A DNA stretch of 64,000 bases from Haloprofundus halophilus (GTDB lineage: Archaea > Halobacteriota > Halobacteria > Halobacteriales > Haloferacaceae), in assembly GCF_003439925.1 (NCBI RefSeq), contig NZ_QQRR01000001.1, positions 1,178,001 through 1,242,000 on the forward strand, read 5' to 3'. Below the pieces are notes generated by a model. The model saw nothing but the letters and a program-made list of their open reading frames with translations, was not told where the DNA came from and did not search any database. The position numbers and the translations under genes were made by a program. Below, one piece after another: positions 2,642-45,430 of this stretch (within the stretch, counting starts at the first letter, position 1; each line of letters begins with the position of its first letter).

Positions 2642-3553
2642 ATGAATCCGCACACTCACCCGACGAATATTCTCAGTTTCGACGTCGAGCACTGGTACTC
2701 CGCGACGCTCCTCGGTGGGAATGTTGGCGATTCGGTGGACAGGATACACGAATCGACGGATATCGTTCTCGATACCCTCCGGAGATACGACGCCGTGGCG
2801 ACGTTCTTCATCGTCGGTGAGGTTGCCGAGACGTATCCGGAGATCATTAGAAAGATAGCGGACGACGGACACGAGATCGCTTCGCACGGACAGACACACA
2901 CGCCGATTTTCGATCTCACTCCGGAGCAATTCGAATACGAACTTTCGGCATCCGCGGACGCATTAGAATGGGCCTCCGGCGACCGTCCGATCGGATTTCG
3001 TGCGCCGAACTTCTCGGTGACACGCGAGACCGAGTGGTCGATCGACGTGCTCGAGTCGAGCGACTACGTCTACGATTCGAGCGTCTTCCCGATGAAGACG
3101 CCGATGTACGGCGTCTCGAAAGGGTCACTGCGGCCATATCTCGTCAACTCGGAACGACCGTTCGAACCGACGACGGACACGACGACGGGGGAGAGTCGTC
3201 TCGTCGAGTACCCCATGGCGGTCACCGACACCCCATTTCGGTTGCCCGTCGCCGGGGGGTTCTACGCGCGACTGTTCCCGATAGAGCTTCTGGAGTGGGG
3301 AATTCGGCGGCTCAACAGACGCGGTATCCCGGCGACGCTCTACTTTCATCCCTGGGAGTTCAACCCTGCAGTGTCGACACCCGACCCTCCGTTCGCGAAC
3401 CGCTTCATCAGTTTTCACGGCATCGACCGCACCGCCGCGAAACTGGAGCGACTGCTCCAGACGTTCGAGTTCGACACACACGCATCTGACCTGACCGGCC
3501 GCGGCTGGCGCGAACTGGCCACTGGACTATCGACAGGTAACGAATCAATATGA
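2642..3553 (+). CDS. Polysaccharide deacetylase (NodB / DUF3473 type)
   Basis: 303 residues. This is a carbohydrate-esterase-4 family enzyme expected to remove N- or O-acetyl groups from a polysaccharide or its lipid-linked precursor. Visible NodB motifs are SFDVEHW (D14 and E16), FFIVGE, the metal-binding HEIASHGQTH (H82 and H86), RAPNFS (R120) and YFHPWEF (H236). The C-terminal HPWEFNP region is typical of the subfamily tied to bacterial exosortase/EPS loci. There is no signal peptide, so it is probably cytoplasmic. It is first gene of a four-gene operon in which each start overlaps the previous stop (ATGA at 3550). Confidence 0.9.
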   Translation: MNPHTHPTNILSFDVEHWYSATLLGGNVGDSVDRIHESTDIVLDTLRRYDAVATFFIVGEVAETYPEIIRKIADDGHEIASHGQTHTPIFDLTPEQFEYELSASADALEWASGDRPIGFRAPNFSVTRETEWSIDVLESSDYVYDSSVFPMKTPMYGVSKGSLRPYLVNSERPFEPTTDTTTGESRLVEYPMAVTDTPFRLPVAGGFYARLFPIELLEWGIRRLNRRGIPATLYFHPWEFNPAVSTPDPPFANRFISFHGIDRTAAKLERLLQTFEFDTHASDLTGRGWRELATGLSTGNESI

Positions 3554-4626
3554 GTGACATCAAAAAGACAAATACGACGACGGCCGAACTGACAATCGAA
3601 CGCTGCAGCAACTCGTACGAGTGGGACCGGTTCGTCGAGCGGGTCGACGGCCCACCGTACGCGCTGTGGGGGTGGGGGGACGCCGCCGAACTGTACGGGC
3701 ACGACCGGTGGTATCTCGCCGCTTCCAGAGACGACGACATCGTCGCCGCACTCCCGCTCGTCCACATGAAGAGTCGTCTGTTCGGGTCGAAACTCGTCTC
3801 TCCACCGTACGGTGAGCGAGGGTCGGTGCTGCTCGACGAATCCGACCTCACAGCCGATCGGGCCGCCACTCGCCTGTTCGAACGGACACGAGCGTTGGCG
3901 AACGCACTTGGCGTCGATTTCGTGAGCCTCCGCGGAAGTCGCGTCATGCAAGCGCCGGCTTACGAACACAAGAACCGTTTCGTGACGTATCGGGTGCCGC
4001 TCGAATCGACCGAAACCGTCTGGGGGAACATCAAAGACAGTCGCCAGCGACAGATAACGCAGGCAGAAGACGCGACGCTCACCTACCGAACCGGCGAGAC
4101 CCTCGACGACCTCAAAGCGTACTACGAGTTGTCCCTTCGGTCGATGCGTGGACACGGGACACCGCCGCACTCTTTCACGTTCCACAAGACGTTGTGGGAT
4201 ACCCTCGGTGAGGACAACGTCCACCTCGGAATGGTCGAGCGAGACGGCGAGTTGATAAACGCCATCTTGGACTTCTCGCTCGGGTCGACGGTTTACCAGT
4301 GGGGCGTCGTCAACGACTACGAGTATCGCGACCTGAACGGGGGGAGCCTCGCGCTCTGGAAGTCGCTCGAACGCGCCGCCGAGGCCGGCCACGAGACGTA
4401 CGAGTTCGGTCGGACTCGCGAGGGGTCGGGCGTCTACCTGTTCAAGAAGAGCTTCGGCGGACGGAAGACGTGGTACGACGATCTCCACTACTTCCCCAGC
4501 GGGTCGGGTGAACTCCCGCATCCCGAGGACGACTCGTACGACCAGGTCAAGAAGGTGTGGCGACGGCTTCCGATTCCGGTCACACAGTACGTTGGTCCGC
4601 AGATTCGGGGGAAGATCAGCCTATGA
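3550..4626 (+). CDS. FemAB-like / GNAT-fold acyltransferase
   Basis: 358 residues. It belongs to the family of lipid II glycyltransferase-like proteins with a double GNAT fold, which attach amino acids or acyl groups to amino sugars. Recognisable features are the N-terminal W-x-x-F pattern, the central segment with basic residues SRQRQITQAED, and the C-terminal YEFGRTREGSGVYLFKKSFGG typical of the second GNAT lobe. It overlaps the deacetylase by 4 bases; a deacetylase freeing an amine next to a transferase able to modify it is chemically sensible. The donor (aminoacyl-tRNA or acyl-CoA) is unknown. Two related proteins occur at 33412 and 35856. Confidence 0.8.
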   Translation: MSDIKKTNTTTAELTIERCSNSYEWDRFVERVDGPPYALWGWGDAAELYGHDRWYLAASRDDDIVAALPLVHMKSRLFGSKLVSPPYGERGSVLLDESDLTADRAATRLFERTRALANALGVDFVSLRGSRVMQAPAYEHKNRFVTYRVPLESTETVWGNIKDSRQRQITQAEDATLTYRTGETLDDLKAYYELSLRSMRGHGTPPHSFTFHKTLWDTLGEDNVHLGMVERDGELINAILDFSLGSTVYQWGVVNDYEYRDLNGGSLALWKSLERAAEAGHETYEFGRTREGSGVYLFKKSFGGRKTWYDDLHYFPSGSGELPHPEDDSYDQVKKVWRRLPIPVTQYVGPQIRGKISL

Positions 4627-5816
4627 GTCTGCACGTCGCCTACGTCGTCGGACAGAGCACCGGCGGGCTTCCACACTACACTGCCGAACTCGCAAACGCC
4701 GTGTCGAAACACGCCGAGGTAACCGTGTTGAAACCGGACAAGACGAGTGCCGACGACCTATTCGACGACGAAGTCGAGGTCATCGACGCTTTCAAACCCA
4801 TCAGCGTCTCGATGCCGCAACTGTACAGTTTCGAGGTCAATCCGTTCGACTTCGTCCGCGGGATTCGCTCCTACGACAACCTCAAACTCCTCGACGAACT
4901 CGACCCGGACGTCGTCCACGACACGTCCGACATGTTCCCGCAGGTGAAGCTCTACGCCGCCAAACACAACGTCGGCGAGCGCTGGCCGTTCGTCGTCACT
5001 CGACACGAGGTGGCACTCGATCGGTTCTCACTCTCGCGGCCACCGGTGTTCGTCGAAGAGGCGATGCTCGCCGCGCTTCCGGACGTCCACGAATCGCAGT
5101 ACATCGTCCACTCACACAAACAGAAAGCGGCTCTCTCCACCCACGGTATCGACGACGATATCATCGAAGTCATCCCCCACGGCGCGTACGAGGTGTTCGG
5201 CACGCACGAGGACGTCGACGTCGACGTCGACCCGAACAGCCTGCTGTTCTTCGGCCACATCGTCCCGCCAAAGGGCCTCGACACGCTCGCAGCAGCGATG
5301 CCGCTCATCATGCGCGAGATTCCCGACGTGAAACTGATGGTCGCCGGCGAAGGGAACCTCCCGCGAAAACTCAAACGGTTGCAGAAAAATCATCCCGAGA
5401 ACGTCGAGGTGCACAATTACTACTTGCCGAACGACGAGGTCAAGAACCTCTTCGGACGCGCCGAAATCGTCGTCGCGCCGTACCGCAGCCAGGGCGGCAC
5501 GAAAGGCCACAGCGGCGCGGTGTCGACGGCGTTCTCCTTCGGGAAACCCATCGTCGCGTCGACGGCTGGGGAGTTCCGCGAACAAGTCCAAGAGAGCGGT
5601 GCGGGGAGAGTTGCCCCGCCCGAGGACCCCGAGAAACTCGCAGCGGTGCTCATCGACGTTCTACAGAACGACGAGAAGCGAGCGACGATGCGGGAGAACA
5701 GCCTCAGGATGGCAGAGCGGCTCTCGTGGAGTAGCATTGCCGACCAACATCTCGACCTGTACGAACGACTCGCAGGGCGACAGCACGCAACCCACTCACC
5801 AACAGCAAGCAAATGA
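4623..5816 (+). CDS. Glycosyltransferase, family 4
   Basis: 397 residues, GT-B fold. The N-terminal domain begins MSLHVAYVVGQSTGGLPHYTAELA, the usual acceptor-side start of GT4 enzymes. The C-terminal domain has LLFFGHIVPPKGLDTL, a VAGEG loop, and a donor-binding part HSGAVSTAFSFGKPIVAS. The start at 4623 was chosen because it makes an ATGA overlap with the upstream stop and begins at the conserved first strand; a longer frame to 4557 exists but adds unconserved residues. It probably transfers an NDP-sugar to a lipid-linked glycan on the cytoplasmic face. Confidence 0.9.
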   Translation: MSLHVAYVVGQSTGGLPHYTAELANAVSKHAEVTVLKPDKTSADDLFDDEVEVIDAFKPISVSMPQLYSFEVNPFDFVRGIRSYDNLKLLDELDPDVVHDTSDMFPQVKLYAAKHNVGERWPFVVTRHEVALDRFSLSRPPVFVEEAMLAALPDVHESQYIVHSHKQKAALSTHGIDDDIIEVIPHGAYEVFGTHEDVDVDVDPNSLLFFGHIVPPKGLDTLAAAMPLIMREIPDVKLMVAGEGNLPRKLKRLQKNHPENVEVHNYYLPNDEVKNLFGRAEIVVAPYRSQGGTKGHSGAVSTAFSFGKPIVASTAGEFREQVQESGAGRVAPPEDPEKLAAVLIDVLQNDEKRATMRENSLRMAERLSWSSIADQHLDLYERLAGRQHATHSPTASK

Positions 5817-6679
5817 GAGAACAGAGTTCGGAGAATCTGGAGAAACCTCGGACGACTACTACCCGCCGACATCTGCTGAAGTCGAGCGCAGTAGCCACTG
5901 TTCCGTTCGCCGCCGGGTGCCTCACGACTGGACGCCGTGATCTGCTCGACGCCATCGCGGACAGCGTACACCAGGAGGAGCCGCCGACCGCCCCTGGAAA
6001 CAAACCGGTCGACACTTCCGAGATGACACTCGTCTTCGAAGATTGGTTCGAGAGCGGCTCGCTCGACCGTTCGAAGTGGCGAACGAAGTTCCCGTGGGAC
6101 GCTCGGACGCACAACTTCGACGCTTACGCCGCCGACGAGAACGTCTACGTTGACGACGGGAAACTCGTGCTCAGAGGCGAGAACAAGCCACAGGAAGGGA
6201 AGTCGTACACGACCGGGGTCGTCTCGGCGAAGTACATCTTCAGCCCCGGCTACTTCGAGGGCGTGATGAAGGTGCCGCCGCGGTTCCCCGGGTCGTGGCC
6301 GGCGTTCTGGCTCACCTCCGCGTCCTACTGGCCGCCAGAGGTGGACATCTTCGAGTTCTTCGGTGCCGACCCGGAAGTGTACATGACGTACCACTACGAT
6401 GGAGACGGAGAGGGAAGCGAACAGGTGCGAGGGACGTACGAGGGGCCCGACTACAGCGCAGACTACCACGAGTTCAGCGTCGACTGGGACCCGCCGCACC
6501 GCGTCATCTGGTACATCGACGGGGAAGAACGGTTCCGTTACACCGGCGACAACATCAAGTTCGAGAATATGTATCTGATTCTGAACTTCGGACTCGGGGC
6601 CGAGTTCTTGGGCTATCCGAGCGCGGAGAATCTCCCGGCGACCTACGAGATAGAGCGCGTTAGAGTCTGGGAACGGTAA
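5813..6679 (+). CDS. GH16 family glycoside hydrolase, Tat lipoprotein
   Basis: 288 residues. The N-terminus has a twin-arginine motif (TRRHLLK, R18-R19) and a lipobox AAGC (C36), so the protein should be Tat-exported and lipid-anchored outside. The GH16 jelly-roll covers about residues 72-287. The catalytic signature E-x-D-x-x-E is PEVDIFE (E176, D178, E181). GH16 enzymes cleave beta-1,3/1,4-glucans, agarose, carrageenan and related polymers, or transglycosylate. It closes the operon (ATGA at 5813) and so likely trims or terminates the polymer made by its neighbours. The substrate is not predictable. Confidence 0.9.
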   Translation: MREQSSENLEKPRTTTTRRHLLKSSAVATVPFAAGCLTTGRRDLLDAIADSVHQEEPPTAPGNKPVDTSEMTLVFEDWFESGSLDRSKWRTKFPWDARTHNFDAYAADENVYVDDGKLVLRGENKPQEGKSYTTGVVSAKYIFSPGYFEGVMKVPPRFPGSWPAFWLTSASYWPPEVDIFEFFGADPEVYMTYHYDGDGEGSEQVRGTYEGPDYSADYHEFSVDWDPPHRVIWYIDGEERFRYTGDNIKFENMYLILNFGLGAEFLGYPSAENLPATYEIERVRVWER

Positions 6680-6735: not shown

Positions 6736-8547
6736 TCAGTTCGTGAAGTCGGTCTCCGCGCCGTCGAGCGTAGTGACGACGTCGCCACCGAACGTCGATA
6801 TATCGGTGATCTCGCCTTCGAGGAGCCAGTACGCGTCGGTTCCGCCGACGACCTTGCCGAAGATTTTGCCGCCGCTCACTTGGTCGTCCGGATTGACCGA
6901 GGAGCGGGGTACGTCGGCTTTCAGTAGTCTACCCGTAGACTCGACTATGTACTTGACGAGGCCGTTACTGTCGTCCGCACGCTGGACGCGGAGCAACTGA
7001 ACCGGTCGCTCGTTGACGAGCACGTCGGCGTCGCCGTCGAGCGAGAGTCCTTCGAGTTCGCCCTCGAAACCGAAGACTGCCTGGCCGTCGCTCACCGAAC
7101 CACTCGCCGAACCGTCCGAGACCGACGCCTCGCTGCTCGCACCGCTGTCAGCTTCGAGGCTTCCGCTGACGGATAGCTCGTAGTTGGCCGTTCCCGAAGA
7201 CCCGCTGGCGTCGATGGTGAGCGTGTTCGGTAACGACGAACCCGACTCCTCGTCTTCGTCTCCTTCGGTGTCACCTCTTCCGTCACTCTCCGTCTCCGGG
7301 AGCGTATCGGGGTCGACGTACTGGTTGTCGATGAACACCTGCAGGGGACCGCTGTAGTCGAACTCGGTTATCTGGCCGTCGTACCAGAAGCCAGGCAGGT
7401 CGTTGCTGCGCTCCGTGACCGTCCCGCTCGCGGAGGTTCGGTCGTCTGAAACCGTGTAATCCGCGGGGAAGTTCGTCTGAAGGTCTATGTTGCCGCCGCT
7501 CGCGGAGAACTCGAACGACGCTTCACCGCCGTCGTACTCCGAACGGAGCCAGAGATAGTGTTCTCTGGCTTCGGAATCGTCGCCGCTGGAATCCTCCTCG
7601 GAGCCGTCGGTGTTGTCAGAGTCGTCGCCGTTCGATCCGTCGTCCGAGCCGCCGTCGGAGCTGCCGTCGTTTCCGTACTCCCAGACGCGAGCCCAGTCGA
7701 CCACCATCTCCTCGTCCCAGTTGGCCGATTTGTCGGTCGTGCCGACGCGGTCGATGTGGATGGTGAACATCATGTAGAACGGTGCGCCGTTGTTACACGA
7801 TTCGACGATGGTGTCGGCGGTACGTTCGGCGACGAGTTGGCCGTCGACGTAGTGTCGAATAGCGTCCTCCTGCCACTCGCAGCCGTAGATGTGGAAGTTC
7901 TCGGTGAGGTCGTCGCCCACGTCGTAGCTCGCGCCGTCGTCCTCGTGAGGGCCGTTTGGCTGCGTGTCCGAGGAGTAGTGGATGTGGTGGTGCGACTGCG
8001 TGTAGTCGCTCGAGGAGCCGTCCGTCTGGAACAGCTCGACGAAATCGATCTCCGGCGGCCACGCCTCGCTGTTCGGCTTCGCCCAGAACGCCGGCAGGAA
8101 ACCGACACGCTTGGGGAACTTGATTTTCGCTTCCCAGTAACTACCGGGACCGAAGTACTGCTTGTCCTTCGTGTTGACCGCGCCCGCTTCGATTCCGTTG
8201 TCGGGTGATGCACCGATGCGCAACTGTCCGTCGGTGATGTTGACGTACTCTTCGGAGATGCTCTCCGGCGAGGCGTTCGTCTCCATACCCCAGCCGAATC
8301 CGACACCCCAGTTCGAGGTGTCGAGCGACCCGCTATCGAAGGTATCCTCGAACGCGAGCGTCCACTCGTCTTGGTTTTCGGGGCCTCCTTCGGTCACTGC
8401 TGCGACACTACTCGCTCCGGCACCGATTCCGCCGAGTGCGGCGGCACTCGCACCGGTGAGTTTCAAGTAGTCTCGTCGGTCCAAAAGTCCGCTGTCGTCC
8501 TCGTTTTCGCCACTGTGCGTCTCGCCTGACAGTTTGTCACGTGCCAT
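6736..8547 (-). CDS. GH16 glycoside hydrolase with three C-terminal repeat domains
   Basis: 603 residues with a Tat signal (DRRDYLKL, R24-R25) but no lipobox cysteine, so probably secreted. The GH16 domain spans about 62-292 with signature PEIDFVE (E166, D168, E171). A very acidic Ser/Asp/Gly linker (about 293-330) leads to three related beta-rich repeats (about 331-418, 440-525 and 535-600). The last has the pattern GKVVGGTDAYWLLEGEI, close to VFGGADAFRVAGDI in the protein at 44405. These repeats may bind the polysaccharide or the cell surface. The gene is convergent with the GH16 lipoprotein. The upstream AT-rich sequence contains a TATA-like TAATAATTC near 8573-8581, fitting a leaderless start. 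Confidence 0.9.
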   Translation of the reverse strand: MARDKLSGETHSGENEDDSGLLDRRDYLKLTGASAAALGGIGAGASSVAAVTEGGPENQDEWTLAFEDTFDSGSLDTSNWGVGFGWGMETNASPESISEEYVNITDGQLRIGASPDNGIEAGAVNTKDKQYFGPGSYWEAKIKFPKRVGFLPAFWAKPNSEAWPPEIDFVELFQTDGSSSDYTQSHHHIHYSSDTQPNGPHEDDGASYDVGDDLTENFHIYGCEWQEDAIRHYVDGQLVAERTADTIVESCNNGAPFYMMFTIHIDRVGTTDKSANWDEEMVVDWARVWEYGNDGSSDGGSDDGSNGDDSDNTDGSEEDSSGDDSEAREHYLWLRSEYDGGEASFEFSASGGNIDLQTNFPADYTVSDDRTSASGTVTERSNDLPGFWYDGQITEFDYSGPLQVFIDNQYVDPDTLPETESDGRGDTEGDEDEESGSSLPNTLTIDASGSSGTANYELSVSGSLEADSGASSEASVSDGSASGSVSDGQAVFGFEGELEGLSLDGDADVLVNERPVQLLRVQRADDSNGLVKYIVESTGRLLKADVPRSSVNPDDQVSGGKIFGKVVGGTDAYWLLEGEITDISTFGGDVVTTLDGAETDFTN

Positions 8548-9047: not shown

Positions 9048-9632
9048 ATGTGGCCCTGGGGACACCTCGCGTTCGGGTACGTCTGGTACTCGGTATGGAG
9101 TCGGACAACAACGCGCGAACCACCGACCGAGGTTTCGACTCTCGCAGTCGTGCTCGGGACGCAGTTCCCCGACCTCGTCGACAAACCGCTAGCGTGGGTG
9201 TTTGGCCTGCTCCCGAGTGGGCGTTCGCTCGCTCACTCGGTACTCACCATGGCACTCGTCGTAGGTGTGCTCTATTTCCTCGCCCGAAAGTACCGACGAA
9301 CCGACCTCGTCACCGCGTTCGGTATCGGCTACGCGTCGCATCTCGTCGGTGACTCTCTCTCCGCGCTTTTCGACGCCGAGTACGGAGAGTTGGCATTTTT
9401 ACTGTACCCGCTTATGTACACCGACTACGGAGAGGAGTACGGTTTCCTGTACCGTTTGGCGCAGTTGGACATCGGTGACTTCCTCGGCCCGCAGTTTCTC
9501 GTCGCCCTCGCCGTCGTCGTCCTCTGGATAATCGACGGAGCACCGGGACCGGGGGCGCTCAGTTCCCTCCTGAAACGCGCGTACGACAGACTCGCCGGAA
9601 CGAGCCAAAGCGAGTCAGAACACGGCGGTTGA
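9048..9632 (+). CDS. Membrane-bound metal-dependent hydrolase, YdjM/DUF457 type
   Basis: 194 residues, several membrane segments. It begins MWPWGHLAFGY and contains GTQFPDLVDKPL, SLAHSVLTMAL and ASHLVGDSLSA, the spaced H / PD-x-x-D / H / H-x-x-x-D pattern of the YdjM family of predicted metal-dependent membrane hydrolases. Such proteins are widespread in haloarchaea and their substrate is unknown, with phospholipid-phosphatase-like roles suggested by the fold. It runs convergent with the FkbM gene and overlaps it by 18 bases. It is not obviously part of the glycan operon. Confidence 0.8.
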   Translation: MWPWGHLAFGYVWYSVWSRTTTREPPTEVSTLAVVLGTQFPDLVDKPLAWVFGLLPSGRSLAHSVLTMALVVGVLYFLARKYRRTDLVTAFGIGYASHLVGDSLSALFDAEYGELAFLLYPLMYTDYGEEYGFLYRLAQLDIGDFLGPQFLVALAVVVLWIIDGAPGPGALSSLLKRAYDRLAGTSQSESEHGG

Positions 9633-10463
9633 CGCTGTTTCGGCGTCCGAGGTTCGCAGATCTGCATCCTTACGGTAGCCGACGATGGTCGGGTCCTTTC
9701 CGGGTCGGTCGACGCGGAGTGTGACCGTCGAGAACCCGAGATTCTGCAGTCGCGTTCGCAACTGCTCGGCGTTGTCGTGGGCTTCGACGTAGACGAATCG
9801 ACAACGGTCAGCCGAGAGGGATTCCGCCAGACCGTCGATGACAGCTGGACCCGTCCCCTGAACGTCGATTTTGACGACCGTCGGTGCAGGTATTTCGCCC
9901 CGTTCGACGAGTCGGTCGCCCGCTACCGTCTCGGTGGAAAACGAACCAATCGGGTCGCTGCTGGGGTAAATTGTGTCGAGCGAGCCGTGCTGTGCCCCCG
10001 CTTCGTCCGTGTCGTACAGGTAAAACGTCGCCGTCTCGATGCGGTCGGAGAGCGGCCGCTGCTGGATTGGAGTTTCGATGCCGTTCGCCGCGAGGTTGAC
10101 GCGCAATCGCTCGACGTTCGGCGGATACGGTTCGAAGGCGACGACAGTGCCGTCCGTCAGCAGGCTGTCGACGAGACAACAGTAGATACCGATGTTCGCG
10201 CCAACGTCGTAGAACACGTCGTCTTCCTCGATGTGCGCGAGCAGATGTCTGAGCACCGCTTCTTCGTCCCAGATGCGGTTTTCGATGTTGTTCCACTCCA
10301 TGAACGTCGCCGGGTAGAAAACGGCGCTCGCGTCGTCGACCGCAAGACGGTACGTCGGCGAGACTCGCAGATACGCGTTCACTGCGGACTGGTACGCCTT
10401 CACGCCGTATGTGTAGACGGGCGTCCCCCACAACAGGTCTGCGAGTGAACCCACGAGCGACAT
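9615..10463 (-). CDS. FkbM family SAM-dependent methyltransferase
   Basis: 282 residues. The SAM-binding motif I is FYDVGANIGIYCC, followed by VVAFEPYPPNVERL (motif II), and an acidic VVKIDVQGTGPAVI strand typical of FkbM enzymes, which methylate hydroxyl groups on sugars and secondary metabolites. The first 80 residues are helical and may lie against the membrane. In this context O-methylation of a glycan sugar is likely. A TATA-like CTGTTTAGT (minus strand, 10486-10494) lies the right distance upstream of the start for a short leader. The 3' end overlaps the convergent gene by 18 bases. Confidence 0.88.
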   Translation of the reverse strand: MSLVGSLADLLWGTPVYTYGVKAYQSAVNAYLRVSPTYRLAVDDASAVFYPATFMEWNNIENRIWDEEAVLRHLLAHIEEDDVFYDVGANIGIYCCLVDSLLTDGTVVAFEPYPPNVERLRVNLAANGIETPIQQRPLSDRIETATFYLYDTDEAGAQHGSLDTIYPSSDPIGSFSTETVAGDRLVERGEIPAPTVVKIDVQGTGPAVIDGLAESLSADRCRFVYVEAHDNAEQLRTRLQNLGFSTVTLRVDRPGKDPTIVGYRKDADLRTSDAETASTAVF

Positions 10464-10693
10464 AGCAATCGGGTCAACATCGACTGACTAAACAGTTCGT
10501 CACGTCTCCGCCAGAAACCGATGGGGGTGACAGATTCTCTCCCGGTTGTACGTCAACAGTCGCAGAGTAGCGCCTGCTATCGGTTACGGTCCATCGAACA
10601 CAATGTCGCGATACCGACTGTCCGGTCTGCGCGAACAGACCTTAATTACCTGTCACATTGTGGCTTCTTACAGCACATGGGGGATTCACCAAG

Positions 10694-11893
10694 ATGACGA
10701 CGACTACTGGACATTGGGATTCTGTTATCGTACCGGCGAACTTCTCGATAAACGCCGTTGCCTGTCTGCGGTCGCTTGCACCAAGAGACGTCCATACCAT
10801 CGTCGTCTCTGAGCACGACGATGTCCCGGCCTTCGCCTCGAAGTACTGTAACGAGAAAGTACTGATGCCGTCGCCGTACGACAACTTTCCGGCCTACAAA
10901 GAATCGCTTCTCGCACTGGCGACTCGACCGGACGTACGGACGGTCGTTCCCACGCGAGAGATGGATGCGTACATCCTCTCGAAGTACCGCGAGGAGTTCG
11001 CAGAACACGTCACCGTCGGGTGGCCGACGTTCGACTCACTTCGCACCGCTCAAGACGGCAAGGAGTTGGCGGAGGTCGCAGAGCGACTCGACATCCCGGT
11101 TCCGAAGACAGAGACGCTCGACGAAGTCACCGACTGGGACCGAAAACTCATCGCCAAACAACGGTACTCGTTGCTCGCGGAGGATTACGTCGACTTCCTC
11201 GAACCGGGGACGTGTGAAGGGAGGATGGACCCGATATACCTCGAATCCGGGTCCGAACCCGACACGGATGCGATAATCGACGAGATGCTCGGCCACGTCC
11301 CCATCACCCAGGAGATCGTCAAGGGCGTGGAGTACTCGTTTCGTGCGCTCTACGACCACGGCGAACCGGTCGCGACGAGTCTTCGACGGCAACTACGCGG
11401 GAAGACGTACGCGGGCGGTATGAGCGTGTTCCGCGAGATGACCCACGACCCCGAGGTGGAGGAACTCGGGGAGCGACTGCTGACACATCTCGACTGGCAC
11501 GGCTTGGCATCGGTGCAGTTCATCAAAGACCACGAGAGCGGCGAGTTTTACTTCCTCGAAATCAACCCCCGAATCTGGGCGTCGGTGCTGCTCGACGTGC
11601 GTGCCGGTGCCGACTATCCGTACAACTACTGGCTCATGACGCAGGGTCGGACGGACGAAATCGATCCGGGGTACGAAGAGGGTGTAGCCACACATCTCCT
11701 CGCTGGAGAACTTCAGTATCTCTGGAGCGTCGTGCGACACAATTACCCAAACGTCGACAAACCGTCGATTCGGACTGCTACCTGGGAAGTCGCGTCGTCG
11801 ATCTACGAACATCCCCACTTCGACTTCGTGAGTTTAGACGACCCGCGGCCGTTCGCACAGGGCATCCTCAACACACTGTCGCGGGGTCGATAA
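10694..11893 (+). CDS. ATP-grasp carboxylate-amine ligase
   Basis: 399 residues from the ATG at 10694; the frame is open further upstream, but the added residues are unconserved. It is an ATP-grasp protein of the predicted ligase group (COG3919-like). An N-terminal Rossmann-like domain with repeated strand-helix units (to about 120) is followed by the ATP-grasp domain, with KQRYSLLAEDY, GVEYSFRALYDHGEPV and the Mg/ATP-binding signature FYFLEINPRIWAS. Such enzymes form an amide between a carboxylate and an amine. Near aglM and FemAB-like genes it may join an amino acid to a uronic acid or similar sugar; that is inference. CTTAATTACC at 10641-10650 is a possible TATA box. Confidence 0.85.
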   Translation: MTTTTGHWDSVIVPANFSINAVACLRSLAPRDVHTIVVSEHDDVPAFASKYCNEKVLMPSPYDNFPAYKESLLALATRPDVRTVVPTREMDAYILSKYREEFAEHVTVGWPTFDSLRTAQDGKELAEVAERLDIPVPKTETLDEVTDWDRKLIAKQRYSLLAEDYVDFLEPGTCEGRMDPIYLESGSEPDTDAIIDEMLGHVPITQEIVKGVEYSFRALYDHGEPVATSLRRQLRGKTYAGGMSVFREMTHDPEVEELGERLLTHLDWHGLASVQFIKDHESGEFYFLEINPRIWASVLLDVRAGADYPYNYWLMTQGRTDEIDPGYEEGVATHLLAGELQYLWSVVRHNYPNVDKPSIRTATWEVASSIYEHPHFDFVSLDDPRPFAQGILNTLSRGR

Positions 11894-12020
11894 CTCGATG
11901 TCGGCGCACAGACGCGCCGTAACCGGAGTCGACGGACGATCGAGTAGCTTCGAGGTATCGAGACTGTATCGAATCCGAACACCCACAGCGTGGACGAGAA
12001 CGGTAACACGGAGCTAACAG

Positions 12021-13454
12021 ATGGATCTCGGTCGCTCATCGTTTAACATGGTCCTCTCGAAGGGCGGCGGCGCCCTCCTGATGTTCGCCGCCGTCACCTT
12101 CTTCGCGCGGAGTCTCGACTCCGCGCAGTTGGGGATCTTCTTCCTCTTTTTCGCCGTGCAAGGGCTCCTCTCGATTCCGGCCGACTTGGGCCTCCGCGGC
12201 GCACTGGAGAAACGTCTCAGCGAAGGACAGAACCCCGAGACGGTACTCGGGTCGGCGGTCGCGTTCAAACTAGTGTTGCTGGCGATAGTGTCGCTCGCGA
12301 TATTCGCGTTCCGACCCTGGTTGAACGATTACCTCGGTGCGGACCTCGCGAACCTTCTCATCGCCACCGTCGTGCTTCGAGAGCTGTCGTTGCTGTACAT
12401 TCACGCGGTTCGTGGCGAACTTCGAGTCGGTGAGACCGCCCCCATCGAGTTCGCTCGACGACTCACGTGGGTCGTCGTAGCGATACTGCTCATCACACAG
12501 GGTTTCGGCATCCGGGGTATCGTCTACGGCCTCATGCTCGGGTCCGTCGTCGCGTTCACGTGGGCGTACGCGAAGTGCACGACCAGTATCGGCAGACCCT
12601 CGATAGCGGAGACGAAGTCGCTTTTTGTCTTCTCGAAGTACGACACTATCAACTCCGTAGGTGCCGAAATCTATCAGTGGATGGACTCGGCGTTCATCGG
12701 GTTCTTCCTCGCTGCGCAGTTCGTCAGCGCGTACGAAATCGCCTGGCAGATAACTCTTCTCGTCATCATGGTGAGCAAATCTATCTCGCTGACGCTGTTC
12801 CCACAGATCAGTCAATGGAACGCCACAGCGTCCATCGACCGTATCGAAGAAACCGTGTCGACAGCCATTAGTTTCGCCGTCTTCGTCTCGATTCCGGCGA
12901 TTATCGGATCGATGCTCTACTCGACCGAGATTCTGCGCTACATCTTCGGTCCCGAGTACACCATCGCCTCGATGGTGCTCGTCATCCTCATGATAGAGAA
13001 ACTGTTCCAGTCGTTCAACGACATCGTCGGCGACTCCGTCCGCGCCATCGACCGTCCGGATCTCGCTGCGAGAGCGACGGTCGTCTCGGTCGGAATCAAC
13101 TTGATTCTCAACCCGGTGCTCATCGTCTCTATCGGATTCGTCGGTGCCGCCATCGCGACGACCGTCTCGTGGATGGTGAACACGGTGCTCCACACGAAGT
13201 ACCTCTCGCAGTACATCACTATCGACATCCCGTACAGACTCGTCGGCTGGTACGCCGTGATGTCGGTCGTTATGGGCGGGATTCTGCTCGGTGTGAAATC
13301 GGTGCTCCCCGTTACCGGCCTCGTACTCCTAATCGCACAGGTCGGACTCGGTACAACCATCTACCTCGTCGCATCGGTCGTCGTCCCGGACGTGCGAAGA
13401 CAGATCGTTCTCCCAGGGTTGCGGGTCATCGGTTCGCAGGTCTATTGGCGCTGA
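12021..13454 (+). CDS. Polysaccharide flippase, Wzx / MVF type
   Basis: 477 residues, about 12-14 membrane helices. The N-terminal segment MDLGRSSFNMVLSKGGGALLMF, with FFARSLDSAQLGIFFLFFAVQ after it, is typical of the oligosaccharide flippase family (MOP superfamily), with the usual early arginine and alternating hydrophobic helices to the end. It would move a lipid-linked oligosaccharide across the membrane. It lies 127 bases after the ATP-grasp gene on the same strand and may share its transcript. A second flippase is at 18850-20334. Confidence 0.88.
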   Translation: MDLGRSSFNMVLSKGGGALLMFAAVTFFARSLDSAQLGIFFLFFAVQGLLSIPADLGLRGALEKRLSEGQNPETVLGSAVAFKLVLLAIVSLAIFAFRPWLNDYLGADLANLLIATVVLRELSLLYIHAVRGELRVGETAPIEFARRLTWVVVAILLITQGFGIRGIVYGLMLGSVVAFTWAYAKCTTSIGRPSIAETKSLFVFSKYDTINSVGAEIYQWMDSAFIGFFLAAQFVSAYEIAWQITLLVIMVSKSISLTLFPQISQWNATASIDRIEETVSTAISFAVFVSIPAIIGSMLYSTEILRYIFGPEYTIASMVLVILMIEKLFQSFNDIVGDSVRAIDRPDLAARATVVSVGINLILNPVLIVSIGFVGAAIATTVSWMVNTVLHTKYLSQYITIDIPYRLVGWYAVMSVVMGGILLGVKSVLPVTGLVLLIAQVGLGTTIYLVASVVVPDVRRQIVLPGLRVIGSQVYWR

Positions 13455-13635
13455 CGTTCCTGGCGCTCGTCTCATCTCTGAGATATGATAGTCAACTGAA
13501 AATGACGTACCGGCGGAAATGAGAGAAATTATATGTGAATCAATCTGGTAAATATCTTGAATTTGGGCTGTCACGTTGTTTCGCCTTTGGTAGCTCGTTT
13601 ACCAGTCCGGAAACCGTCACAGCCGAACTCTACCC

Positions 13636-15984
13636 ATGTCACGAAACATTACACAAACCTCACAGAGGGAGATGCCCGTTGAGTGGAGTCCAAAAGCGAT
13701 AGTGACGCTCATCGCCGGACTGCTCGTCGTGTTCTGGGGGAGCACGCTCGTTTCCACGTCATCGGGGATACTGCTCGGTGTTCGGGTACTCGCCGCGAGC
13801 GCACTGTACCTCTTTCTCCCCGGCGCACTGTTGGTACGGCTTCTCAACCTCCGAATCGGGTCGTTCGGTCCGTTCACTATCCTCTCCGTTGGACTGAGTT
13901 TCACCCTCTTGGCCCTGGTTACCGTCCTCTCCAGCGTCGTGTTCCCGATTTTCGGTGTCGGCGCGCCTCTCGGGTTCGTCCCGCTCGCGCTCACACTCAC
14001 GCTGGTCATCGTGGGCCTCGCAGTTCTCGTCTCCTCGACGGAGACGACGCTCCCTCACCTCCACTACGAGTTGGACGTCTCACCGTGGGTTCTGGCGCTC
14101 GTCGCGTTTCTCCCGGGTGTCGCCGCAGTTGCCGCCATCGTGATGAACCAGTTCGGGTCCAACGTCGGTATGTACGTGTTCGTCGTCGCGACGGCGACCA
14201 TCGTGGGACTCGCTTTCCTTCAGCTCATCCCACAGCAGCTCTATCCGTTCACCATCTTCGCCGTCTCAGTGTCGATGCTCCTACACCGGAACTTGCTGAG
14301 CGAGCACGTCATCGGCGCCGACATACAGAGCATGTTCTACACTGCGACGGTCGTCGGCAACACGCAGATTTGGAGTCCGGCCATCGGTGGGTCGTCGCTC
14401 GCCGTTCCGATGGTGAGCGCCGTTCCTGCCGCAGTGACGGTTCTCACCGGTATCGAACTGACGACGACGTACAAAGTGGTCTACGTCCTCCTGTTCGCGC
14501 TCGCTCCAGTCGGACTGTTCTATCTCACGCGCGAGATTTTCGACACCGACATCGCACTATACGGCAGTCTCCTCTTCACATTCTACCACCTCTCGTTCTA
14601 CTTCACGCCCGACAAGCAGTTGGTCGCCGAACTGTTCGTAGTCGCGCTATTGCTCGTGTACTTCGGGACGTACTTCGAGACGCCCGGAAGCAAACTCGCG
14701 GGCGTACTGTTCACTGTCGGCCTCGTCTACAGTCACTACGGGGTGGCCTACGTGTTCGGTTTCGCGCTTCTGGCCGCAGTCGTCGGTCTGTTCGTGGTAC
14801 AACGTATCGTCGGAGACGTCGAGCATCGGCTCTCGCTTTCGTACCCCGTTCTACTGTTAGTCGGTGCGACAGCGTGGTACGCATACTCGTCGCCGGAACT
14901 CATCGCCACGCTCCAGTCGGTCCCCCTGAGTCTCGCCGACCAAGTGGTGACGCTCCTTCAGACGGGCCTCGTGGAGGGTTCGGGCGGGAGCTACGTCTCC
15001 GAGGGCTCCGGGACGCTCGACGACATGCATCTCGCACTCTACATTCTCCTCACGGTGTTCCTCGGCGTCGGATTAGCGTGGCAGGTACTCACTCAACTGT
15101 ACGAAATCCGCACCGGACAGTCACCCGCGTACGTCGAGTACACCGCGCTGGCGATACCGCTGTTCGTCTTCCTCGGGTCGTCGTACTTCTTCACGCTCAA
15201 TCTCTGGGCCGACAGAGCCTATCAGATGGTGCTAATCGTTCTCGCCCCGTTCATGCCCATCGGCTACCGAATGCTCGCAGAGAAGATGGGTGTGGTAATT
15301 CGTCGTATCACGCCACAGAGCGTCGTTCCAGAAGGAACGAGTTGGGCGGTGCTAGCTGTCCTCCTCGTCGTCCTCTTGGGGTTCAACTCCGGGTTCCTGT
15401 TCGCGGCTATCGGGACCTCCCACAGCGCGACGTTCAACGGCGACGCACACGACTACGTCTTCGAAAACGACGAGCGAGCGGGTGCGGAGTGGCTCATCGC
15501 CAATACGAACGTCTCCGAGACGGACGCGTACCAACCGAGGGATGGGAACAGCGCACGAGAGATACCGATCTTCACCGATACGGTGACTAGCCAGATGCTC
15601 AGGTCGGAACTTCCGGAGAGCTACTACAACACTGAGACGAGACAGTTCAAAAACGAGTGGAGTCCTCAGTTCGAAATCGAGAACATCGATAGAGGGTACG
15701 TGTACATCCGCGAACGGGGCGTCTCCGAGACGAACACCGACGTTCCGACGAGTAGGCTATCGAGCGACAACGAGACCGAGATCACGTCCACACACAACGT
15801 CGTTTACAACAACGGTGCGGCCACCGTCGTCAGCGTCAGACCTGCAGCCTTCGCCGACGGGACGGTAGCACAGAACGAAACCACCGCGAACGGAACGACT
15901 CAACAGCGTCTCGCACTAGCAAACGGCGACAGCGCAGAGGCACCGAAACAGACCGTACACGACGCGTCAGCGTGGGACCGATGA
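13636..15984 (+). CDS. Large multi-membrane protein, DUF2206-like
   Basis: 782 residues. About 14-16 hydrophobic segments occupy residues 15-600, followed by an exported soluble domain of about 180 residues containing Asn-x-Ser/Thr sequons near its end. The layout resembles DUF2206-type proteins and GT-C glycosyltransferases or polymerases of archaeal EPS clusters. The WWDYG motif of oligosaccharyltransferase AglB is absent, so it is not AglB. Polymerase (Wzy-like) or dolichyl-phosphate-sugar-dependent transferase are the main possibilities. The stop overlaps the following GT2 start (ATGA at 15981). The AT-rich stretch near 13525-13565 probably carries the promoter. Confidence 0.75.
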   Translation: MSRNITQTSQREMPVEWSPKAIVTLIAGLLVVFWGSTLVSTSSGILLGVRVLAASALYLFLPGALLVRLLNLRIGSFGPFTILSVGLSFTLLALVTVLSSVVFPIFGVGAPLGFVPLALTLTLVIVGLAVLVSSTETTLPHLHYELDVSPWVLALVAFLPGVAAVAAIVMNQFGSNVGMYVFVVATATIVGLAFLQLIPQQLYPFTIFAVSVSMLLHRNLLSEHVIGADIQSMFYTATVVGNTQIWSPAIGGSSLAVPMVSAVPAAVTVLTGIELTTTYKVVYVLLFALAPVGLFYLTREIFDTDIALYGSLLFTFYHLSFYFTPDKQLVAELFVVALLLVYFGTYFETPGSKLAGVLFTVGLVYSHYGVAYVFGFALLAAVVGLFVVQRIVGDVEHRLSLSYPVLLLVGATAWYAYSSPELIATLQSVPLSLADQVVTLLQTGLVEGSGGSYVSEGSGTLDDMHLALYILLTVFLGVGLAWQVLTQLYEIRTGQSPAYVEYTALAIPLFVFLGSSYFFTLNLWADRAYQMVLIVLAPFMPIGYRMLAEKMGVVIRRITPQSVVPEGTSWAVLAVLLVVLLGFNSGFLFAAIGTSHSATFNGDAHDYVFENDERAGAEWLIANTNVSETDAYQPRDGNSAREIPIFTDTVTSQMLRSELPESYYNTETRQFKNEWSPQFEIENIDRGYVYIRERGVSETNTDVPTSRLSSDNETEITSTHNVVYNNGAATVVSVRPAAFADGTVAQNETTANGTTQQRLALANGDSAEAPKQTVHDASAWDR

Positions 15985-17003
15985 GGGGAACGAACGACAC
16001 ACCGGAAGTGGAGAGCAACGGGGCCGACACACCGCTCGTCTCCTACATCATCGCGACGTACAACCGCGTCGACGACCTCGTCGAGGCCGTCGAATCCGCG
16101 CTCGACCAGCAGTACCGGCCGATAGAAGTGATCGTCGTCAGCAACTCGACCGACCGGATCCGCGAGGACGAACTGTTCGGCGACGGTGGTCGGTTCGACC
16201 GAGACGAAGTGCAGTACTACCACTTCGCCGAACGGATGGGTGCGCCCGGTGCGAAGAACGCCGCCATCGAGCGAGCGTCTGGCGACATCGTCGTACAGAT
16301 GGACGACGATGCGGTCTTGGCCGACGACACCGCGACGGACGAAGTCATCAGGCTGTTCGAGACGTACGACAACGCCGGAATCTTGGCGTTTCAATCGTTG
16401 GACTACTACACCGGCGAGATAAAGATCGACGAGACGCCCGACCCGCCCGAGTTCCACATCGAGCCAGACGAACAGTTCTGGACGACGAGTTTCATCGGGA
16501 TGGGGACGGCGTTCCGACGAGAGGTGTTCGAACAGGCAGGGCTGTACCCCGACAACTTCGTCTACGGCTTCGAGGAGATGGACCTCTCGATACGCGCCCT
16601 CGACGCGGGGTACGACATCCTCTACACGCCCTCAGTCGCCGTGTACCACAAGAAGACACCCGAGGGGCGACTCTCCGACAAGGAGACCAAAGAGCGCCTG
16701 GTCGAGAACAGAATCAACATCGCCGTTCGGAACCTCCCGTGGCGATACGTGCTGTTTACTAGTGTGATCTACTCGGTCTACGTCGTCCTACTCACGAGAA
16801 GTTTCTCTTCGCTCACGAACGTCTTTCGCCGCCTGTACAAGAAACGTGACCGCCTGTATGCTGAGCGGGACGTCGTCGACTCCGAGACGATAAAGCGCAT
16901 CAAATCGAGTCAGACGATGCTGTTCCTCTGGTGGTACGGCCCGCATCCGAAGCGCATCCTCGGACGGGACGGGAATCTCAGTCGTCTGAAGTGGGAAGTG
17001 TGA
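15981..17003 (+). CDS. Glycosyltransferase, family 2
   Basis: 340 residues from the ATG at 15981, chosen because it overlaps the previous stop by ATGA; a GTG at 15972 is in frame. The GT-A fold starts LVSYIIATYNRVDDLVEAV. Donor and metal binding is seen in VQMDDDAVL (DDD), and the acceptor-side FVYGFEEMDLSIRALDAG matches the rhamnosyl/galactosyl-transferase-like ED motif. A C-terminal hydrophobic segment (about 248-268) and basic tail suggest peripheral membrane attachment. It probably adds a sugar to the same glycan as its coupled membrane partner. Confidence 0.9.
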   Translation: MRGTNDTPEVESNGADTPLVSYIIATYNRVDDLVEAVESALDQQYRPIEVIVVSNSTDRIREDELFGDGGRFDRDEVQYYHFAERMGAPGAKNAAIERASGDIVVQMDDDAVLADDTATDEVIRLFETYDNAGILAFQSLDYYTGEIKIDETPDPPEFHIEPDEQFWTTSFIGMGTAFRREVFEQAGLYPDNFVYGFEEMDLSIRALDAGYDILYTPSVAVYHKKTPEGRLSDKETKERLVENRINIAVRNLPWRYVLFTSVIYSVYVVLLTRSFSSLTNVFRRLYKKRDRLYAERDVVDSETIKRIKSSQTMLFLWWYGPHPKRILGRDGNLSRLKWEV

Positions 17004-27703: not shown

Positions 27704-28117
27704 AGTTCGGATAACTGTAATCTAGCACATAAATCTATTCTCATGAATGGAAACTGACTGTTGTGGCGACCGTCTCGTCTCCGATATCGATTCGAGTTCG
27801 CGGCGGCACTCCGTGGTCGGTCCTCGCGCGTCCGTCGACGGGGCCGCGGCGTCCGGCGAACGGGAATAGAAAATCTAGTTGTAAATACGTGTTTACCCGA
27901 AAAATCAGAAGATTTACCTTCGACTGTACAAACTGCGGTTATGCGTGGGGAGCAGAGTCTACACGAGGATATGTGAAGCTATGAAATTTGATAGTTCCGG
28001 GAGATGGTTTACGCTGAGTCGGCGTCGCGGACGTCCCACGCGACCTGTCCGCCGAGCGACCGAGGCAACGGCACGGGCAACGTAATTCGAAGAACTCCGT
28101 ACAAAAATCCAATATCT
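27704..28117. other. Divergent intergenic region
   Basis: No supported gene in about 410 bases. AT-rich patches occur at 27710-27745, the DUF1616 promoter, and at 27870-27930 and 28085-28115, which probably include the promoter of the lyase-like gene. Short frames here lack haloarchaeal codon bias. Confidence 0.4.
27727..27736 (-). promoter_or_regulatory. TATA box for the DUF1616 gene
   Basis: On the minus strand this reads AGATTTATGT, 24-33 bases upstream of the ATG at 27703, matching the usual archaeal TATA spacing for a leaderless mRNA. Confidence 0.5.
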
Positions 28118-42205: not shown

Positions 42206-42823
42206 TTCGAGTTCCCTCTGTTCAGTAGTACAGTCAGATGACCGGTTATATAACTTTCTAATTAATTAAGTGTGAGTGGACTTACGCTAGTCGGGGAACT
42301 ACTGACAGGGACTAATATCACCTCTAACGCTCGTTAAATCGGTTTTCAGACACCCCGTGTATGATATGAAATCTGGTAATTCTCACAGATTAGGTGTGAT
42401 AGAGAAGTAATATATCAGAATCAGCACCCAAATTGCCGCCCGGGACGACCCGTGTCCGGAGGCGTCGAAAACGGTTGTCCGGAGAAGACTCTCCAATCTG
42501 GACGAACGTAGCGGCCAACTACTGACAGTAGGCGTCGAAAACGAGCAGCGACGGCGTCAGACTCGGTCAGGTTCGGACGCGAAACAGTCCAGTAGCGCTC
42601 CACTAGCGACGATAGTACAGCACCTAGGCACGGGAACGAATCCGCTACCCGGTTCGGAAGACGGAGCGTCAGCGGCGAAGAACGTCACTGCGTAGGTGTG
42701 GGCGTTTCGTGTGTCAGACGATTCGTCGAAATAGAAACGAGTCGGCCGAGAAACACCTACTCTCGGATAGCCAGAATATACTAAACCCGGATAGTTCCGT
42801 CTGTCCCGTCGGTGCGAAAGTGC
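42206..42823. other. Divergent intergenic region with short direct repeats
   Basis: No supported gene in about 620 bases. The stretch from 42240 to 42420 is AT-rich and contains promoters at both ends: TTATATAAC near 42246 for the lectin-like gene and ATATACTAAAC near 42777 for the repeat protein. A 14-base direct repeat AGGCGTCGAAAACG occurs at 42460-42473 and 42530-42543, and AACTACTGACAG occurs twice (about 42297 and 42518). These may be regulatory or remnants of rearrangement. Confidence 0.5.
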
Positions 42824-44143
42824 ATGACACGAGAGAATCAGACCCGAAGACGGTTTCTCGCGGGGAGCGCGGCGACACTCGGTTCGCTGTCACTACTGGC
42901 GGGCGGTGCGGGTGCGCAGGCGTCGACGCGCACTATCGCCGTCGTCAACGCGACCGGTGGCGGGCCGGCGAAGTACCGATTCAGCGTCGACGGCGACGTC
43001 GAGAAGGCGACGGACACCGGCGGGGCGCCGAACCAGTTCGCCTCGCTCGACGACGACGACACACTGAGCGATGCCACCGCGGAGGGGCGCGTCTACGGTG
43101 GCGCGGACGCGTACCAGTTCGCCGGAACGGTCACGAGCCTGGTCGTCGAGGGCGGCGCGGACGTCTACGTCGACGGCGAAGCGGTCGACCCCGACGAGTT
43201 TCCCGCGCCGGGCGTTCTCGCTATCACCGGCGACGGCGAGTACGCGTTCGCCGTCGACGGGAACGTCGAGAAGACGACGCTGACCGGCGACGCGGACGTC
43301 CCGCCCGCGTCGCTCAACGACGCCGACAGCGTGGAGGGAGGGTCCGTCGACGGGTCGGTGTTCGGCGGCACCGACGCCTACGTCGTCGACGGCGACATCG
43401 CCGAGTTCGACCTCGACGGCGGACTGACGGGGTATCTCGACGGGGACGTGTACACTGGTCCCGCGGACGGGCGCGGCGACGCCGAGAGCGCCGAAGACGG
43501 CGGCGGCGACGCCGCCGGTGACGACGGCGACGCCGACGAGGGGGGCGAGGCCCCGTCGACACCCGAACTCGTCTTTCCGGACTGCACCAGCGTCCGGGTC
43601 ACGGGCGCGTTCGAGTCGGCGTCGCTGGAGGTGCTCGTCGAGGACGACGACCCCGAGACGACGCCGATGGAGCAGGTGTACGAGTACGACAACGCCGACG
43701 GGGCGACGGAGGCCACAGTCGCGGTTCCCGACGGGGAGTTCGGCCCCTATCAGGTCGTCGAGGCCGCCTCGGTCACCTACGGCGACGGCGAGGAGACACG
43801 TGCGGTCAATCCCGAGGCCGACGCCTGCCGCGAGGAGACGTTCCCCGCGGTTCGGGACGTCGAGTTCCTCGACTGCACCAGTGTCCGGGTCGCGGGCGCG
43901 TTCGAGGAGCTCTCCATCGAGGTGCTCGTCCAGGACGACGTGCCGCCGACCACGCCGATGGAACAGGTGTACACGGTCGAAGGCGACGGCTCCGAGGAGA
44001 CGACGGCGAGCGTCCCCGACGACGAGTTCGGCCCCTACCAAGTCGCCGAGCGAGCGACGGTCGTCTACCCGGACGGCGAGCGGCTCGACGTGACGAATCC
44101 GAGCGCAGATAGATGCCGTGACGAGACGTTCTCGGGGGCGTGA
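42824..44143 (+). CDS. Tat-exported tandem-repeat protein (surface repeat family, copy 1)
   Basis: 439 residues from the ATG at 42824. The Tat signal is QTRRRFLAG. Two N-terminal repeats (about 35-125 and 126-215) carry F-x-V-D-G-D-V-E-K and V-x-G-x-V-x-G-G-x-D-A-Y patterns. An acidic Ala/Asp/Gly linker follows. Two C-terminal modules (about 250-345 and 346-438) each have F-x-D-C-T-S-V-R-V-x-G-A-F and a second cysteine in A-D-A/R-C-R-E/D-E-T-F, probably one disulfide per module. The N-terminal repeat also occurs in the GH16 enzyme at 6736. Function unknown, likely at the cell surface with polysaccharide. Confidence 0.75.
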   Translation: MTRENQTRRRFLAGSAATLGSLSLLAGGAGAQASTRTIAVVNATGGGPAKYRFSVDGDVEKATDTGGAPNQFASLDDDDTLSDATAEGRVYGGADAYQFAGTVTSLVVEGGADVYVDGEAVDPDEFPAPGVLAITGDGEYAFAVDGNVEKTTLTGDADVPPASLNDADSVEGGSVDGSVFGGTDAYVVDGDIAEFDLDGGLTGYLDGDVYTGPADGRGDAESAEDGGGDAAGDDGDADEGGEAPSTPELVFPDCTSVRVTGAFESASLEVLVEDDDPETTPMEQVYEYDNADGATEATVAVPDGEFGPYQVVEAASVTYGDGEETRAVNPEADACREETFPAVRDVEFLDCTSVRVAGAFEELSIEVLVQDDVPPTTPMEQVYTVEGDGSEETTASVPDDEFGPYQVAERATVVYPDGERLDVTNPSADRCRDETFSGA

Positions 44144-44404: not shown

Positions 44405-45430
44405 ATGAAGGAAACACATACAAGCCGCCGTACGTTCCTCGCTGGCAGTCTCGCGACCCTCGGCGCAACCACGGCAACCATGACCGTTCGAGCACAGCAA
44501 TCTGAGTGGAAGCACGTCGTCGTCTCGGGCACCCCGGGTGCCGGGCCGGTCCGGTACGAACTGGAGGCGACCGACACGCTCGAAAAGACCACCGAGACGG
44601 GCGGAGCGCCCGTCGACGGCGCGTCGGTCAACGCGAACGACGTGCTCGAAGGGAGCTTCGCCAGCGGCGTCGTCGTCGGCGGCGTCGACGCCTACCGTTA
44701 CCGGGGCGACCTGACGCTGCTGTCGGTCGACGGCGACGCGACCGTCTACCTGGACGGAACGCAGACGGACCCCGACAGCGTCGGTGAGAACTACGACTAC
44801 CTCGCCATCGTCGGCGACGGCTCGAAGGCCGACTACAGTTTCGAAGTCGACGGCGACGTCGCCAAGACGAACATGACCGGCGGCGCACCGACCCGCTACG
44901 CCTCCGTACAGAGCGGCGACGGCGTCGACACCGGGTCGGTCAGCGGGTCGGTGTTCGGCGGTGCCGACGCCTTCCGGGTCGCCGGCGACATCACCGGGTT
45001 CGACCTCTCGGGCGGCGCGGCGTATCTCAACGGACAGGAGTACACCGGACCGAGCGGCGGAGACGGTTCCGGCGGAGGCGAAGGCGACAGCCGCGGGCAG
45101 ACGAGCGACGGCTCGGAACCGGGCGTGGAGTTCGTCGACTGCACCACGGTCGAAGTGACTGGCAGTTTCGACCAGGTGTCGCTGTCGGTGCTCGCCTCCG
45201 ACGGCGGGTGCGGCCCCGGACCGCGCTTCAGCGAACAGGAGTACGTCTTCGGTCTGAACGCCGACGAGGTCGTCGAGGGAACGACCACCATCTCGCTCCC
45301 GAGCGGCTACTTCGCGGCGTACCAGGTCGTCGAGTCCGCTACGGCGGAGGGAACCAGTTCGATGTCCGTGTCGAACCCGGACGCCGACGCCTGCCGCGCC
45401 GAGATGGAGTCGCAGTTCGAGGACTGCTAG
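44405..45430 (+). CDS. Tat-exported tandem-repeat protein (surface repeat family, copy 2)
   Basis: 341 residues. Tat signal TSRRTFLAG. Same architecture as the gene 260 bases upstream but with one C-terminal cysteine module: two beta repeats (about 35-125 and 126-215, e.g. SVFGGADAFRVAGDI), an acidic Gly/Ser linker, then FVDCTTVEVTGSFDQVSLSVL with further cysteines GGCGPG and ADACRAEM. The pair arose by tandem duplication. TATA-like GCTTAAGA near 44358-44365 suggests its own promoter. Confidence 0.75.
   Translation: MKETHTSRRTFLAGSLATLGATTATMTVRAQQSEWKHVVVSGTPGAGPVRYELEATDTLEKTTETGGAPVDGASVNANDVLEGSFASGVVVGGVDAYRYRGDLTLLSVDGDATVYLDGTQTDPDSVGENYDYLAIVGDGSKADYSFEVDGDVAKTNMTGGAPTRYASVQSGDGVDTGSVSGSVFGGADAFRVAGDITGFDLSGGAAYLNGQEYTGPSGGDGSGGGEGDSRGQTSDGSEPGVEFVDCTTVEVTGSFDQVSLSVLASDGGCGPGPRFSEQEYVFGLNADEVVEGTTTISLPSGYFAAYQVVESATAEGTSSMSVSNPDADACRAEMESQFEDC

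Follow-up and report, generated by a model that had tools for sequence, protein, structure and literature searches.

Does the beta-rich repeat shared by a GH16 protein and two other proteins of this locus form a domain family of its own, and what might it do for the proteins that carry it? The preliminary description of the window (the whole stretch of 64,000 nt analyzed here) treated the repeat as unnamed and as a good candidate for a new carbohydrate- or surface-binding domain. The first host gene (6736..8547, minus strand) is an open reading frame for a 603-aa protein comprising a Tat-type signal (RRDYLKL), a GH16 catalytic domain, an acidic linker, and three C-terminal repeat copies. It matched PF00722 at 7.8e-17, scoring 61.7 bits against a cutoff of 22, and its catalytic ExDxxE motif is intact (EIDFVE, aa 166-171). 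The nearest solved relatives of the catalytic half are the endo-beta-1,3-glucanase 2vy0 (phmmer, 2.9e-12) and then 4dfs, also a GH16 structure. Protein B (open reading frame 42812..44143, plus strand; probable start ATG at 42824) consists of a Tat-type signal, two repeat copies, an acidic linker, and a second, Cys-containing module present twice. Protein C (open reading frame 44405..45430, plus strand) has a Tat-type signal, two repeat copies, a linker, and one copy of the second module. Neither B nor C has a recognizable catalytic domain.

Profile matching located the unit, of about 80 to 92 residues, three times in the GH16 protein and twice each in B and C, as had been proposed. On the minus strand lie copy G1 (aa 328-415; 7303..7566; 82 bits), a divergent FWYDG subtype; G2 (aa 440-518; 6994..7230; 75 bits, and 2.9e-06 with a profile of B and C only); and the C-terminal G3 (aa 520-602; 6742..6990; 87 bits, and 2.3e-10 with the profile of B and C only). 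On the plus strand are B1 (42926..43198), B2 (43208..43462), C1 (aa 31-126; 44504..44779), and C2 (44783..45052). The repeats do occupy the block first assigned to them in the GH16 gene (6736-7520), although their real extent is slightly longer, 6742-7566. The count of seven is also right, but the copies, whose pairwise identity is 18 to 55%, are not all independent. B and C are paralogues (55% identity between B2 and C2, 42% between B1 and C1), so seven copies do not amount to seven independent events; in addition, G1 is divergent and the EKTTxTGGA segment is mostly missing from the copies of the GH16 protein. A six-frame profile scan found no eighth copy in the window.

To guard against self-confirmation, profiles were built leaving out each protein set in turn. 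The profile of B and C recovered the GH16 protein at 1.4e-18, and the profile of the GH16 copies recovered B at 3e-16 and C at 9e-18; overall, the excluded sets were recovered at E values of about 1e-16 to 1e-42. The top score in a control of about 900 shuffled proteins was 12.7 bits. Profile searches of other genomes then found the repeat well beyond the source island. It is present in 11 copies across five proteins of the source genome, in 38 of 60 relatives, and in 49 of a phylum-wide sample of 296 genomes, all 49 from the window's own order. A three-copy query of 72,556 plasmid records gave 32 matches, each from a halophilic archaeon, and a single-protein query of genome contigs gave one Halalkalicoccus locus. 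No relatives of the domain were found in a phage collection or in three viral-contig scans. The observation of seven copies in one glycan island holds as regards the glycan context here, but the domain is spread through the order Halobacteriales and is not special to the island. Two further hosts were noted in the source genome: an 808-aa Tat-type protein with three copies, 17.6 kb from a flippase (L103, G000:C5 28815-29738), and a 409-aa protein with a single copy near its N terminus (L104, G000:C1 1326545-1326757).

The description of the repeat as unnamed was borne out within Pfam-A, NCBIfam, and the PDB, the libraries to which the statement applies. No Pfam-A or NCBIfam match above the curated cutoff fell in the repeat regions, and 29 single copies compared with Pfam gave scattered chance-level matches only (best E value, 0.024). 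One family member had a weak match to Laminin_G_3 (E value, 0.029), and no Pfam CBM family matched the repeat in sequence. When the repeat profile was compared with all PDB sequences, nothing was significant and nothing fell below an E value of 0.015, the value of the weak top match, 6er2, which is named a BNR/Asp-box repeat protein and which we take to be a sialidase CBM40. We did not find the repeat described in the literature, in a search that covered few subscription journals. We conclude that the repeat is a genuine, widespread, and divergent haloarchaeal domain that is missing from the libraries tested.

AlphaFold2 modeling of copy C1 from an alignment with seven other copies gave a high-confidence all-beta structure of nine strands (pLDDT 94, pTM 0.85), in agreement with the beta-rich character first ascribed to the repeat. 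In the model of full-length protein C (pLDDT 75), two repeat domains are followed by a low-confidence linker (219-236) and a further beta domain. The repeat is thus predicted to fold as a separate all-beta domain of about 85 residues. Comparison of the C1 model with 350,542 PDB chains by Foldseek gave no match at an E value of 0.001 or lower; full-length protein C as the query gave no fold match, and a viral structure library gave nothing significant (best E value, 0.12). The best fold similarity by probability was to the DUF4425 structure 3u6g (probability 0.89, TMq 0.50, E value 0.21, identity 10%), and CBM2, CBM22, cohesin, and pilin structures were present in the list, all insignificant. 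The predicted strand arrangement is possibly one with no clear solved relative. A ConA-like or CBM40 identity, prompted by 6er2, was dropped, the fold search having given no significant match to such sandwiches.

We surveyed 73 host frames from many genera, of which three were truncated or odd. A Tat-like twin-arginine (RR) start was found in 59 of these frames, and in 58 no more than 25 aa followed the last copy. The number of copies per host ranged from one to seven, with a median spacing of 6 aa between copies. Among the Pfam partners were beta-helix/pectate-lyase-like folds (15, plus 2 Pect-lyase matches), GH16 (4), GH26, polysaccharide deacetylase, and glucose/sorbosone dehydrogenase; the domain was accordingly contiguous with carbohydrate-active enzymes in the GH16, GH26, deacetylase, and beta-helix hosts. 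Other partners included PKD and PPC and, among those that are not glycan enzymes, subtilase, thioredoxin, and VWA. Individual variants included a Haladaptatus fusion to a DsbA-like thioredoxin (L046 3125-4216, plus strand) and a Halococcus dombrowskii sugar dehydrogenase with the domain at its N terminus (L047 4845-6506, plus strand).

The gene content of the window supports its description as a glycan island. Pfam and synteny identified a polysaccharide deacetylase, a GNAT/FemAB-like protein, and a GT4 glycosyltransferase at 2642..5816 (plus strand), a trio whose order is also kept in Halobaculum marinum. They are followed by a second GH16 protein, which has no repeats (5813..6679, plus strand; PF00722, 6.8e-19). 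Pfam matches at 9615..17003 indicated an FkbM methyltransferase, an ATP-grasp protein, a Wzx-like flippase, a DUF2206 membrane protein, and a GT2 glycosyltransferase, exopolysaccharide genes that by synteny also surround the GH16-plus-repeat gene of Halobaculum marinum. A PL14-like polysaccharide lyase (28004-29248, plus strand; 2.3e-20) lies in the middle of the island. The second GH16 gene is arranged tail to tail with the repeat-bearing one, and at the syntenic locus of Halobaculum marinum the short GH16 protein carries one FWYDG-type copy (L042 10016-11149). On pHME505, flippase-like, glycosyltransferase, and nucleotide-sugar genes of Haloferax mediterranei surround the gene for a four-copy beta-helix protein, WP_004060911, in a polysaccharide locus that is presumably the known exopolysaccharide cluster of this species.

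Flippase statistics extended the glycan context across genomes. Among the matches listed, 33 of 68 host genes from 23 genomes had a PF13440 flippase no more than 20 kb away, compared with 3.6 expected from uniform placement. When the four congeneric relatives were omitted, this was true of 25 of 49 host genes in 19 genomes, again among the matches listed, and of only 2 of 142 genes for SBP_bac_5, a secreted family that served as the control across these 19 genomes (Fisher P value, 1e-15). Since PF13440 marks other glycan loci too, the enrichment indicates an association with surface-polysaccharide synthesis in general, and about half of the hosts have no flippase within 20 kb.

Two features of the region around B and C were also noted. 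The second module, about 97 to 106 aa long with the pattern F-x-DCT-V-V-G-F and an invariant pair of Cys residues, was located at 43556-43852 and 43850-44137 in B and at 45113-45427 in C, all on the plus strand, and two congeners have B homologues with three copies of it. The module hardly extends beyond the genus, being found in all five genus genomes and in one other genus of the family, with a weak match in one more genome. Adjoining B and C, on the minus strand at 41243-42205, is a gene for a Tat-type secreted protein whose three internal repeats gave a weak match to the H-type lectin domain (E value, 0.0085, below the cutoff); this protein had no match among PDB sequences.

A table of 216 nonredundant copies was used to look for residues that might contact a ligand. 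The conserved positions are alternating hydrophobics and turn glycines or aspartates and resemble core and turn positions. The conserved aromatics Y18, F20, Y/F58, and F60 alternate in a core-like manner, exposure being judged here from alternation rather than from coordinates, and position 59, between conserved aromatics, is R in 37% and W in 11% of copies. No conserved exposed sugar-stacking residue was evident in this table, nor an exposed aromatic platform of the kind that CBMs usually, though not always, possess. The copies are strongly acidic, with net charges of -6 to -17, and to judge from their sequences would be awkward partners for an acidic polymer unless cations bridge the two, which counts against glycan binding.

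The repeat resembles several known systems without coinciding with any of them. Like the CBMs of CAZy, its closest work-alikes, it is a small all-beta module that forms tandem arrays at the C termini of secreted enzymes of the GH16 and lyase-like types; unlike them, it has no sequence match to a Pfam CBM, no significant match to a solved CBM fold, and no evident conserved exposed aromatic platform. The bacterial pre-peptidase C-terminal (PPC) domain, PF04151, is likewise a small beta add-on of secreted enzymes, and some repeat hosts carry it as well, but it gave no profile match, and the PPC structure 5sv5 was a poor fold match (E value, 0.62; TMq, 0.39). DUF4425 (BVU_3708 of Bacteroides vulgatus), the top fold similarity, is larger, comes from Bacteroidota, and has no demonstrated sequence relationship to the repeat. 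The catalytic half recalls ExoK-type GH16 enzymes in its setting within an exopolysaccharide locus and in weak matches to ExoK and EglC glycanase models (8.3e-10 and 2.7e-14), whose scores are nevertheless far under the curated cutoffs (38.5 versus 350 and 52.9 versus 700) and whose coverage does not include the repeats.

Direct support exists for the family, its predicted separate domain, the export signals, the C-terminal placement, the partner enzymes, and the association with polysaccharide synthesis, and an accessory retention role for the repeat is likely. We infer that glycan binding is how the repeat retains its protein and that the cell's own polymer serves as the substrate; glycan binding itself is about an even bet. 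Haloarchaea would attach the repeat, usually C-terminally and in one to seven tandem copies, to Tat-exported proteins, and after export the folded protein would be held on the cell's acidic exopolysaccharide or glycosylated surface through several weak sites acting jointly. An attached catalytic domain, here GH16, could then trim or remodel the polymer made by the adjoining locus, and the noncatalytic proteins B and C may cross-link or decorate the same polymer. Since its gene belongs to a polysaccharide-synthesis locus, the GH16 protein more probably tailors the polymer of its own cell than serves in feeding. By analogy, glycoside hydrolases of bacterial exopolysaccharide loci process the polymer of the cell that makes them, as reported for Pel (PMC9894940), and one haloarchaeon that carries putative genes for GH16 and PL1 enzymes failed to grow on the substrates usual for these families (PMC9726719). 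The odds are about even that the repeat is such a haloarchaeal retention module, one that would keep secreted enzymes and other proteins attached to the polysaccharide or surface of their own cell by putative binding.

The acidic copies and the lack of an evident conserved exposed aromatic mean that roles with a protein partner or with no ligand also have to be weighed. The partners that are not glycan enzymes and the hosts, about half, with no flippase within 20 kb likewise count against the retention reading. The repeats might bind the S-layer, a surface protein, or each other, assembling matrix or surface proteins with no glycan contact. B and C, with repeats but no enzyme, would suit this arrangement, as would the thioredoxin, VWA, subtilase, and PKD partners, the 216 copies with no evident sugar-stacking residue, and the insignificant similarities to cohesins and pilins; the polysaccharide-active partner folds and the flippase-rich loci, however, fit a glycan target more naturally, and we regard this alternative as rather doubtful. 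It is unlikely that the acidic tandem domains serve only to extend, solubilize, or stabilize exported enzymes in saturated salt. Conserved positions dominated by core and turn residues, strong acidity, and a copy number varying from one to seven are what such a spacer would show, but a generic stabilizer would be expected across secreted proteins, whereas the hosts cluster near polysaccharide loci (the 25 of 49 versus 2 of 142 given above, among the matches listed), and B and C contain no enzyme in need of stabilization. That the repeat diverged from an established carbohydrate-binding fold, for example the CBM40/LamG-like (ConA-like) sandwich, is very improbable: the 6er2 and Laminin_G_3 matches point toward it, but domains of this type were not near the top of the fold search, which DUF4425 led with a TMq of about 0.5, and a ConA-like domain is roughly twice as large as the repeat.

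The retention reading has a bolder form, which we put forward only tentatively, in which the repeats would be new, Halobacteriales-specific exopolysaccharide-binding beta domains with an unsolved strand arrangement, serving as a common retention code that brings enzymes and matrix proteins together on the acidic polymer of the cell in saturated salt. Haloferax mediterranei is genetically tractable, and a polysaccharide locus of this species encodes the four-copy protein noted above. If binding is true, the repeat would be a salt-tolerant affinity module. Many secreted proteins of haloarchaea that are at present called hypothetical become approachable through the repeat, which also singles out candidates for the enzymes and matrix proteins of archaeal exopolysaccharide, a polymer whose biosynthesis and remodeling are poorly known.
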